Assembly (NCBI GenBank): GCA_014695325.1
Contig: JACJNZ010000035.1
Span: 62,001 to 126,000 of the forward strand
Origin: Cyanobacteria bacterium FACHB-502
GTDB taxonomy: Bacteria > Cyanobacteriota > Cyanobacteriia > Elainellales > Elainellaceae
Length of the DNA: 64,000 nt
Direction: 5' to 3'
Shown here in pieces: positions 55,014 to 57,872 of this stretch. Both the position numbers and the translations under genes were made by a program. How positions within the stretch are numbered: the first letter of the stretch is position 1; the number at the start of each line of letters is the position of its first letter. The notes beneath the pieces were generated by a model that saw nothing but the letters and a program-made list of their open reading frames with translations, was not told the DNA's origin and searched no databases.

Positions 55014-55949
55014 ATGGATGGAAAATTTGCTTTCCGCGCTGCTGTTCAGGGTCATGCTATGTTGTCGCAGGAAATCCTTGCGCTTGCTCAACAAGGTCAT
55101 TCGATCGCCATTGCGACGCTGCTGAACTACGTAACCCGATCGCACGGAGTCAAGGCAAAAGTCCAGCGTCAGAATCACTGTTTGCACGTTTTGCTGGAGG
55201 CGCAGCAGCTTCTTGATCAGGAGAAAGCGATCGCCTTTTTGCAGCGTATTCTAAGCGTCTTGAATGTTCAGTCGATTCAAACCATCATGGTTTATAGTCG
55301 TCGCCAAGGGGAGACTCACCTTGACTGGCGGCAGACGATTCAGTTTCCTTTTCCTTCTTCCTTCGAGCCGTCTTTGCTCGATACCTCTTTTTCTGAACCA
55401 CCCGATCTGCTTTTGTCCGATTTGCCCCTGCCTCGGAGAAATTCTGTGACTCAAGCCTCTAATTCTTTCCCGGAATCCCTAGAGCCTGCTTCCCCTGCCC
55501 CGATCGACGCTCCAACAGAGCTTCAAACCGAAGATGAGCAGAGCTTTACGGTTCAGCATTCTGCGTTTGATACGCGATCGCCAGCCTCTCCACAACCTTT
55601 AGAAGAAGTGTCCTACGCTGCGGCTGCGAATTCTCCTTTTCCTGACCTGTCCGGCTCTGATGATCTGCTGGAGACACCAGACGTGCTCAAGCGTCCAGAG
55701 TCCGTGATTTTTTTGCTGTTCATTAGCCTGTTTGTCTTCTGGGATGCCTACGTCGATTTTCTGGAAGCAGATTTCTCACCGGGAGCCACAGCTATTTCTG
55801 CCAGTCAGCTTGCTCGTCGCTTGAAGGTTAGCCGCAAAACCATTCGGCGCAGAAAACGTGAACCCGATTTTTCTACCTGGACTCAAAGCCTTGACCCGGA
55901 TCAAATTGCCTGGGTTTATCGAAAAGGCTATTACCTGTCGCAGTCCTGA
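55014..55949 (+). CDS. Membrane-tethered HTH-like protein, unknown
   Basis: 311 residues from ATG 55014; upstream in-frame starts overlap the peptidase gene. The N-terminal ~95 residues are a compact alpha/beta domain (MLSQEILALAQQGHSIAIAT, then AIAFLQRILSVLNVQSIQTI). A Pro/Ser-rich linker (~110-225) leads to one membrane helix (~231-249) and a short C-terminal domain with SASQLARRLKVSRKTIRRRK, which looks like a helix-turn-helix. Similar N-terminal domains occur in other cyanobacterial proteins of unknown function. The HTH reading is by eye. Confidence 0.6.
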   Translation: MDGKFAFRAAVQGHAMLSQEILALAQQGHSIAIATLLNYVTRSHGVKAKVQRQNHCLHVLLEAQQLLDQEKAIAFLQRILSVLNVQSIQTIMVYSRRQGETHLDWRQTIQFPFPSSFEPSLLDTSFSEPPDLLLSDLPLPRRNSVTQASNSFPESLEPASPAPIDAPTELQTEDEQSFTVQHSAFDTRSPASPQPLEEVSYAAAANSPFPDLSGSDDLLETPDVLKRPESVIFLLFISLFVFWDAYVDFLEADFSPGATAISASQLARRLKVSRKTIRRRKREPDFSTWTQSLDPDQIAWVYRKGYYLSQS

Positions 55950-55989
55950 ACTTTGACTTTCTCTGCCCCAGGACTTAGGATAGAAACAA

Positions 55990-56155
55990 ATGAAGGGGAG
56001 TAGCTGCTGGCTTTTAGAGTTTGCTTCTGAATGACCTTTGAATTGCTTCAGGAAGCGACTATCTCTGCAAGCTAAGTGAGTTTGAGTCAACATACTGGTG
56101 ATGAACCTGGCTCAAACGCAAAAGCAAAAGCTTTTGATTAGCGAGACCTTCACTA
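55990..56155 (+). promoter_or_regulatory. Mn-sensing riboswitch, yybP-ykoY type
   Basis: The aptamer's conserved segments appear in the right order: GGGGAGTAGC (55995-56004), GTCAACATAC (56086-56095) and GCGAGACC (56141-56148). The P1 stem is TGAAGG (55991-55996) with CCTTCA (56147-56152). Family members bind Mn2+ between two loops and switch on manganese exporters. The gene that follows encodes a UPF0016 metal exporter, as expected. Confidence 0.85.
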
Positions 56156-56190
56156 AGTTCACAAATTGATGTGAGCTGGTGAAGTGTTTT
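56148..56190 (+). terminator. Terminator hairpin of the Mn riboswitch
   Basis: CTTCAC (56148-56153) pairs with GTGAAG (56179-56184) and an inner stem TCACA (56159-56163)/TGTGA (56170-56174), followed by TGTTTTATCC. The CTTCA arm is shared with the P1 stem of the aptamer, so the two folds exclude each other: metal-bound aptamer should prevent termination. Confidence 0.7.
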
Positions 56191-56254
56191 ATCCTCATCA
56201 CGCTCCGTCAGCCGTGACGTCGATCACTGACTGAATCGAGAGGAGCAACTGAGG

Positions 56255-56881
56255 ATGTTAACCGGATTTACTGCGGCTCTGCTGCTAATTACTGTTTCCG
56301 AGCTGGGTGACAAAACGTTCTTCGTTTCTGCAATCCTGGCAATGCGTCACCCCCGTCGCTGGGTATTTCTGGGTGCAGTTTTAGCATTAGCCGCAATGAC
56401 CGTTCTCTCGGTGCTGCTGGGACAGTTCGCAACTCTGCTGCCGGAAATCTACGTGCGCTGGGGCGAAATTCTGCTGTTTCTCTGCTTTGGGCTAAAGCTG
56501 CTCTACGACGCTCGCCAAATGTCGCCCAATGGCTGTTTAGCAGAAGAGCAGGAAGCCGCCGAAACGGTGATGGAAGCCGAGTCCAAGATCAAGCCGCGCC
56601 GATCGCTGGGGGTTGTCTCTCAGGCGTTTGGACTGACTTTTTTGGGGGAATGGGGCGATCGCACCCAGATCACGACGATTGCGCTGGCAGCGGCAAATCA
56701 TCCGATAGGCGTTTCGCTGGGAGCCATTCTGGGTCACGCACTTTGTGCCCTGATTGCAGTGCAGTGCGGCAAGTTTTTCTGTGGGCGCGTCTCCGAACAG
56801 AAACTGACGGCGATCGGCGGCGGCTTATTTCTCCTGTTTGCTTCGATGAGCTTTACTCGGCTGATGGGCTGGGTGGGGTAA
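56255..56881 (+). CDS. UPF0016/GDT1-family manganese exporter (Mnx-like)
   Basis: 208 residues. Two copies of the family motif: ELGDKT (16-21) and EWGDRT (132-137), each at the start of a three-helix repeat, about six to seven membrane helices in all. Synechocystis Mnx (same family) exports Mn2+ to the thylakoid lumen/periplasm; plant PAM71 and human TMEM165 are relatives. Specificity here is inferred from the family and from the Mn riboswitch upstream. Its last 29 bp overlap the 3' end of the convergent mntC-like gene. Ribosome site GAGGAGCAACTGAGG precedes ATG. Confidence 0.9.
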   Translation: MLTGFTAALLLITVSELGDKTFFVSAILAMRHPRRWVFLGAVLALAAMTVLSVLLGQFATLLPEIYVRWGEILLFLCFGLKLLYDARQMSPNGCLAEEQEAAETVMEAESKIKPRRSLGVVSQAFGLTFLGEWGDRTQITTIALAAANHPIGVSLGAILGHALCALIAVQCGKFFCGRVSEQKLTAIGGGLFLLFASMSFTRLMGWVG

Positions 56882-57872
56882 ACGGGGTATAGCGTCCGCC
56901 CAGGTTTTCGACGATCGCTTTAGTATTTGCCACCATCATTTTGATGTAGCTATCGCCATCGCTGCCCGGTGCACCGATTGAGTCGGAGTAAAGCTTTTGG
57001 GGAGCCAATTTCACGCCCGATTCTTCGGCAACGGTGGTAATGAGCTGCGGATTGATCGTGGTTTCAGCAAAGATGCTGGGAATCCCCAAGCCTTTCACTG
57101 ACTCGACTAACTTTTGAACCGTTTGGGCACTGGGCTGCTCTTCGGTACTGATGCCAATGAGGGTTCCCGGCACGGTCAAGCCATAGACACGTGCATAGTA
57201 TTGAAAGGCATCGTGGGTTGTAACGAGTTTACGGCGATCGGGCGGAATTGTTGCGACCTGCTGCTGAATCCAGGTATGAAGCTGCTCTAGTTCCACGATG
57301 AGCCGATTGGCATTTTGGGTAAACTGCTCGCGATCGTCCGGCGAGAGTTCGATCAGCGCGTCCCGAATTGCCTGCACCATCTCGATCGTATTCTCTGCAC
57401 TGCCCCAAACGTGGGGATCGGGAACTGTTTGCCCATCCTTTTGCAGGTCTAGCGGTTTGATCACTTCTCCGACCGCCACTTTTTTAGCGTTTGCTCCTGC
57501 GCCTTCTAGCAGACGAATCAGCCCTGGTTCCAGGTTGAAGCCGTTGTAGAGGATGAGCTGCGCTTCTTCCATTGCCTGGGAGTCGGTTGGAACTGGCTCA
57601 TAAACGTGTGGGTCATCTCCTGGCTTTAGGATGCTGGTCAGATCAATTTCGCTGCCGCCAATTTCAGTCGTCCAGTCGCTAATCATGGTGCTGGTCGAAA
57701 CGACGTTTGGCTTGCCGTCCTCGGCTGTGGACTGATTTGAACCGCATCCGGTTAAACCCATTACCCCGATCACTGTCCAAAGAAGCATATAGCGAGATAG
57801 AGCTTTTGCCCCTTTTCCTGCCCGAAACCGTCCGTTATCTCTATCCCTTGATTGCATCAGTTCCTTTCCCAT
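56853..57872 (-). CDS. mntC: Manganese ABC transporter substrate-binding lipoprotein, MntC-like
   Basis: 339 residues; lipobox LTGC with Cys43 after a hydrophobic signal. Cluster A-I metal-binding protein: ligands His89 (DPHVYEP), His154 (DPHVWGS), Glu244/245 (GISTEEQP) and Asp297 (YSDS). A Glu third ligand and the absence of a His-rich loop favour Mn (or Fe) over Zn. Captures the metal in the periplasm for MntAB. Divergent from mntA with 101 bp between starts. 3' overlap of 29 bp with the exporter gene. Confidence 0.88.
   Translation of the reverse strand: MGKELMQSRDRDNGRFRAGKGAKALSRYMLLWTVIGVMGLTGCGSNQSTAEDGKPNVVSTSTMISDWTTEIGGSEIDLTSILKPGDDPHVYEPVPTDSQAMEEAQLILYNGFNLEPGLIRLLEGAGANAKKVAVGEVIKPLDLQKDGQTVPDPHVWGSAENTIEMVQAIRDALIELSPDDREQFTQNANRLIVELEQLHTWIQQQVATIPPDRRKLVTTHDAFQYYARVYGLTVPGTLIGISTEEQPSAQTVQKLVESVKGLGIPSIFAETTINPQLITTVAEESGVKLAPQKLYSDSIGAPGSDGDSYIKMMVANTKAIVENLGGRYTPFTPPSPSAE

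Follow-up and report, generated by a model that had tools for sequence, protein, structure and literature searches.

The window, a stretch of 64,000 nucleotides (nt) from Cyanobacteria bacterium FACHB-502 (contig JACJNZ010000035.1, positions 62,001 to 126,000), carries a gene for a cation exporter of the GDT1/UPF0016 family (Mnx-like) behind a structured leader. The features of this region are listed in Table 1. Judged by its family, the GDT1 protein would transport manganese, the metal of photosynthetic water splitting, which is toxic in excess. The exporter gene and a gene for a metal-binding ABC lipoprotein converge, their 3′ ends sharing 29 bases (56853-56881). The latter is adjoined by ATPase and PF00950 permease genes, and exporter and importer genes are found side by side in the window. 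The best NCBIfam matches of the three ABC genes were Mn or Zn uptake proteins or related metal ABC proteins, the matches listed being below their cut-offs.

The leader (55985-56254) exceeded each of 200 dinucleotide shuffles in folding stability (z -3.18). In 46 of 61 related leaders, the best -10-like hexamer was located 10-13 nt upstream of GAAGG, and the RNA probably starts a few nt 5′ of P1.

Table 1. Features of the exporter gene, its leader and the adjoining gene (positions in the window)
Feature	Position	Strand	Basis
Sigma-70-like promoter, TTGACT-17-TAGGAT	55953-55981	+	Consensus scan, 1 found vs 0.4 expected
P1 (P1.1 switch helix), 5′ strand TGAAGG	55991-55996	+	Inverted repeat
Loop L1 motif, GGGGAGTAGC	55995-56004	+	Motif match
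P3 hairpin with L3 motif GTCAACATAC (56086-56095)	56077-56120	+	Inverted repeat, covarying pairs
P4 hairpin, CAAAAGC/GCTTTTG	56119-56136	+	Inverted repeat, P4-like stem in relatives
GCGAGACC (56141-56148) and P1 3′ strand CCTTCA (56147-56152)	56141-56152	+	Motif match, inverted repeat
Hairpin H1, exclusive with P1: CTTCAC (56148-56153)/GTGAAG (56179-56184) and inner AGTTCACA/TGTGAGCT	56148-56184	+	Inverted repeats, folding
Anti segment, predicted to pair with the H1 3′ arm (56169-56183) or the Shine-Dalgarno (SD)/start region	56191-56209	+	Folding, pairing z-scores
SD, AGGAG; GGAGC (56242-56246) can pair with GCTCC (56202-56206)	56241-56245	+	
TGAGGAT into the start codon; can pair with ATCCTCA (56191-56197)	56250-56256	+	Inverted repeat
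GDT1/UPF0016 cation exporter gene (Mnx-like), 208 aa	56255-56881	+	PF01169, E 1.4e-44, two stretches
Metal-binding ABC lipoprotein (substrate-binding) gene	56853-57872	-	PF01297

The aptamer and its relatives

A sequence-only reading had placed a yybP-ykoY aptamer ahead of the UPF0016 gene, and this was borne out by the match to PF01169 and by a match of Rfam model RF00080 to positions 55987-56136 (28.8 bits, E 4.7e-6, permissive scan; gathering score 45). The three conserved motifs that it named were found in the order given, as were the family motifs L1 GGGGAGUAG, L3 CAACAUAC and GAGACC; L1 and L3 are shared with the RF00080 consensus. P1 was likewise recovered at its place as a perfect inverted repeat. 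So were the arms CTTCAC/GTGAAG, single 6-nt repeats being common here (16 pairs listed in the inverted-repeat search).

When the window was scanned at Rfam gathering thresholds, no family reached its score. Two Escherichia coli riboswitches that act on translation, mntP and alx, served as controls: mntP scored 41.6 bits with RF00080 and alx gave no match at E≤1. Since these known members also miss the cut-off, the sub-threshold score of the window says little, and the idea that blindness of Rfam marks a divergent class was dropped for the same reason. Among 386 genomes of the phylum, at least 72 matched RF00080 at E≤1, a lower bound owing to stricter filters and with the weakest matches possibly due to chance; none of the 386 genomes, and none of 20 loci rescanned at the gathering threshold, scored above the cut-off.

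A covariance model, R1, was built from 26 cyanobacterial aptamers, that of the window included. In short, 30 loci were passed through a motif filter (L1, L3, GAGAC), which 28 passed (L006 and L021 failed), and 26 were aligned (alignment A1, without L015 and L027). That these motifs are uniform in A1 thus partly reflects the selection. The A1 consensus comprised 27 pairs, of which 15 showed changes on both sides, within P1.2, P2 and P3. R1 matched E. coli mntP, which is outside its training set, with 36.9 bits (E 9e-7), and alx with 19.1 bits (E 0.021). The P2 arm of the window (56015-56072) is longer than in most aligned relatives, and the R1 alignment skips 58 bases there.

Applied to 84 loci, R1 gave 69 matches, 61 of them above 56 bits; these 61 leaders were used below. 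Their P1 had the form GAAGG/CCTTC in 52, compensated GAAAG/CTTTC in 5, GAAGG/CTTTC in 3 and GGAGG/CCTTC in 1. L1 was GGGAGTAGC in 54 and departed from this form in 7, and L3 was CAACATAC in 48, CAACACAC in 5 and of other form in 8; the loop motifs are thus not strict. Cluster representatives were folded for 22 of 25 clusters (in the three omitted, L3 departs from CAACA[CT]A), and 21 of them showed a P4-like stem. Covariation in P1.2, P2 and P3, compensated P1 in 5/61 leaders and P4 in 21/22 representatives support a four-way junction of P1-P4 across the relatives. By this homology, the aptamer is a member of the known yybP-ykoY family, and its ligand would be Mn2+.

Each of the 61 leaders was followed by a GDT1/UPF0016 gene. 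In the phylum, R1 at E≤0.1 matched 64 of 386 genomes and PF01169 matched 177 of 386. A motif scan of named genomes found at least 116 loci, of which 80 were listed; among those listed were loci of Nostoc, Anabaena, Dolichospermum, Fischerella, Leptolyngbya and Synechocystis salina. Tails were obtained from 79 of the 80 (L105 yielded none), and GDT1 followed in 77 of the 79, the locus ending too early in the remaining two. These samples were drawn by similarity of the aptamer and are silent on the share of GDT1 genes without one. At 15 other GDT1 loci (L085-L099, of which L097 is a weak GDT1 match), R1 at E≤1 found no aptamer.

One of these, L090 (G014:C1:1033500-1035100), lies in a genome assigned to the genus of G093, and the G093 leader (L009) is identical to that of Synechocystis salina LEGE 00031 (L158). 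A leader in one and none matching R1 in its congener point to gain or loss of the riboswitch within a genus. The genome of the window (G000) contains four PF01169 matches and a single R1 match, and many other genomes also contain four PF01169 matches; from these counts and frame lengths, single-domain GDT1 genes seem to be present besides the two-domain gene in G000 and others. Upstream of GDT1 genes without riboswitch, 7 of 14 (L086, L089-L093 and L095; by eye) were A/T-rich with 2-5 ATGA words in 260 nt, the mean number of words being 2.5 upstream of these 14 genes versus 1.5 upstream of the 61 riboswitch leaders. Such stretches could perhaps be, on weak evidence, a site of a response regulator such as ManR.

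Hairpin H1 and the pairings behind it

Near-identical leaders were merged before counting, with likeness taken as alignment score over length and a limit of 0.75. This reduced the 61 leaders to 25 clusters. A held-out set was composed of named leaders that were previously unused and fell short of the likeness limit against every leader used; its 64 new tails gave 20 clusters. Start codons were set by hand in L002, L005, L009, L071 and L074 and H1 ends in L076 and L077; all others followed a rule, which may have misplaced a few starts among the named tails (e.g. L136 and L140). Seven distant matches without GDT1 behind them (L006, L021 and L079-L083) were omitted from the relay tests, and L084 (28.2 bits) was not extracted.

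Behind GAGACC, H1 was present in 25/25 clusters, with the P1 3′ strand contained in its 5′ arm and with a pairing z-score below -2 in all 25. The sequence-only reading had proposed that P1 and a terminator arm share bases 56148-56152 and exclude each other. The shared bases and the two exclusive states stood, the overlap being common to the relatives; the terminator role was not supported. On comparison of the leaders, the two-state core of P1 and H1 is real.

The second half of the switch, in which the anti segment can take either the H1 3′ arm or the SD region as its partner, was absent from that reading. The common forms are CTCATCAAGCTCAC for the anti segment, GAGCTTGGTGAG for the H1 3′ arm and GGAGCTTGAGAG for the SD region. 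Against shuffled arms, pairing of the arm with the anti segment reached z < -2 in 22 of 25 clusters and that of the anti segment with the SD in 19, while three control pairings did so in 1, 0 and 1. In the window itself both relay pairings were weak relative to shuffles (z -1.2 and -1.7, respectively). Arm, anti segment and SD differ jointly from the common form in L101, L129 and L155 (GGATTTGG, CAAATTC and GGAATTTGA, respectively), three leaders that by their likeness appear to be one lineage. The tail alignment (A2) contains indels in the anti segment and was not used for pair counts; swap tests were applied instead.

Two further pairings were tried and rejected. Pairing of the L3 loop with the anti segment, based on a 7-nt repeat, gave -10.27 for native versus -10.29 for swapped combinations and was better in 14/24. 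Direct mimicry of the SD by the H1 3′ arm was too weak (likeness 6.08 versus 5.77 of 10 swapped, higher in 13/25).

Folding of the switch region

To mimic formation of P1, the nine bases at the start of the tail (GAGACCUUC) were deleted, and the RNA was ended just before the SD. Folding was carried out at 37°C without Mg or ligand. With P1, arm-anti pairing outweighed H1 in 25/25 clusters; without P1, H1 outweighed arm-anti pairing in only 14/25. Under the P1 condition, linkers shuffled by dinucleotides passed in 13.4% of cases (12.5% for those of the window) and linkers swapped between clusters in 50.7%. The 20 held-out clusters gave comparable values: arm-anti pairing was ahead in 20/20 with P1, with L136 a tie (6.8 vs 6.8), and H1 in 15/20 without P1, while shuffled and swapped linkers passed with P1 in 15.8% and 56.3%, respectively. 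Swapped linkers pass in about half of the cases because the clusters share ancestry and common motifs. For the window, RNAs ending at 56212-56238 were predicted to hold 11.8-13.8 arm-anti pairs when P1 was imposed and 17.7 H1 pairs when free.

In full-length held-out tails without P1, the SD was paired to the anti segment by at least 4 bp in 15/20. The models thus predict one state in which the SD is covered, as in a translational riboswitch. At full-length equilibrium, removal of CCUUC increased SD accessibility by more than 0.1 in 7/25 clusters and decreased it in none; among the 61 leaders, 14 gained more than 0.1 and 1 lost. Predicted commitment before the SD is made (25/25 clusters) contrasts with exposure of the SD at equilibrium (7/25); for the window, both states contain anti-SD pairs once SD and start codon are added. 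A pure equilibrium switch was rejected for this reason. Since equilibrium mostly keeps the SD closed, the ON state has to be kinetic, and only in this way is the relay workable on paper; ribosomes would load during RNA synthesis.

Proposed mechanism and alternatives

The leader is probably a Mn2+ riboswitch that turns on the GDT1 exporter by a co-transcriptional translational relay from Mn-P1 over H1 and the anti segment to the SD, a reading drawn from sequence comparison and folding models. In the presence of Mn2+, the aptamer would dock and P1 would form, taking up the CCUUC bases. The outer half of H1 would then be lost, and the emerging anti segment would capture the H1 3′ arm. With the anti segment held in this way, the SD would be left uncovered, allowing ribosomes to load and the exporter to be made. 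Without Mn2+, CCUUC would go into H1 and the anti segment would stay free to pair with the SD and start region, blocking translation. Comparison of relatives bears out the homology of the aptamer, the overlap of P1 and H1, two alternative predicted pairings of the anti segment and an arm-anti pairing specific to native linkers; from these we infer that Mn2+ is the ON signal, that the choice falls kinetically while the RNA is being transcribed and that the output is at the level of translation.

Metal-dependent antitermination of the exporter, as the sequence-only reading had predicted, would make H1 an intrinsic terminator that Mn2+-stabilized P1 prevents, as in Lactococcus lactis and Xanthomonas oryzae. 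H1 is a strong hairpin in all 25 clusters and, like its counterpart in the characterized transcriptional members (PMC6754395, PMC11087558), overlaps the P1 3′ strand. However, a scan of 55900-56300 found no terminator-like site, and the combination of a hairpin and a U-run that marks an intrinsic terminator is lacking here: H1 is followed in the window by TGTTTTATCC, with a T-run of 4, and within 12 nt downstream of H1 the maximal T-run was 1 in 3 clusters, 2 in 6, 3 in 10 and 4 in 6. Counted over the 61 leaders, T-runs of 1-3 occurred in 38, of 4 in 22 (window included) and of at least 5 in 1. Members of the phylum outside the class of the window do have runs of at least 5 after the equivalent hairpin, in 5 of 7 weak R1 matches (L006, L021 and L079-L083; by eye). 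No GDT1 gene is located behind these seven; TerC-like and MntP-like genes follow some of them (by eye), and their hosts are presumably non-photosynthetic. Moreover, the anti segment is situated downstream of the would-be release site and so, on reasoning from its position, could not act as an antiterminator. Antitermination as the mode of control is therefore quite unlikely.

Slightly better placed, though still improbable, is a double output, in which partial termination at H1 is combined with an SD relay acting on the read-through transcripts. The 22 leaders with a T-run of 4, that of the window among them, are in its favor, and anti-SD pairing would silence read-through; because the anti segment is 3′ of the would-be release point at H1, arm-anti pairing would serve only transcripts that read on. 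The short runs in the other 38 leaders argue against it. An aptamer and H1 that function with a mere SD-hiding hairpin downstream, arm-anti complementarity being a by-product, would agree with the near-control likeness between arm and SD and with a full-length equilibrium mostly without switching. Yet with P1 imposed, arm-anti pairing wins in 25/25 and 20/20 clusters, as opposed to 51-56% of cases with swapped linkers and 13-16% with shuffled ones, which makes this explanation very improbable. The co-transcriptional relay to the SD is the preferred reading.

The studied transcriptional members of the family set P1.1 against a terminator (PMC6754395, PMC11087558). Those of L. lactis and X. oryzae also have the GAGACC strand and a P1.1 that excludes the next hairpin; the cyanobacterial hairpin differs in being without a U-run and followed by the anti/SD element. 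The cyanobacterial form thus seems to keep the contest between P1 and H1, with the output shifted to the site of ribosome binding. R1 matched both E. coli mntP and alx, and in these, too, the strand after GAGA enters a downstream hairpin. No anti segment pairing with both a hairpin arm and the SD was seen in their folds (by eye), and when P1 was mimicked likewise in alx, the hairpin arm thus freed itself paired over SD bases, a layout opposite to the cyanobacterial one. On this small comparison, the relay is not shared by the family as a whole.

A review states that, in a screen of bacterial strains with a UPF0016 member, 328 of 333 have it under this riboswitch, and it places the Anabaena UPF0016 gene under ManSR (PMC7380456). 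A 2024 paper on Synechocystis names ManSR alone for cyanobacteria and describes other Mn-dependent control of transcription there as little known (PMC11649195). A search of the open-access literature, mostly at abstract level, found no report of a cyanobacterial Mn riboswitch. An earlier bioinformatic listing of yybP-ykoY in cyanobacteria is possible, for example in a 2013 survey that covers this family and 14 cyanobacterial genomes (PMC3766115). While the aptamer was already known as a family, the relay platform is new as far as the literature search reaches.

The chances are about even that these leaders form a cyanobacterial branch of Mn2+ riboswitches whose switch hairpin was ancestrally a terminator, shed its U-run and now serves as the opening step of a kinetic relay (P1, H1, anti segment, SD) setting translation of the Mn exporter, beside ManSR. 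The design of the switch is unlike the folds of the members compared (L. lactis, X. oryzae, and E. coli mntP and alx). If the proposal is true, an RNA sensor ahead of the exporter in many cyanobacteria would be a direct sensor of intracellular Mn and would add a layer of Mn control beside ManSR in these oxygenic organisms.
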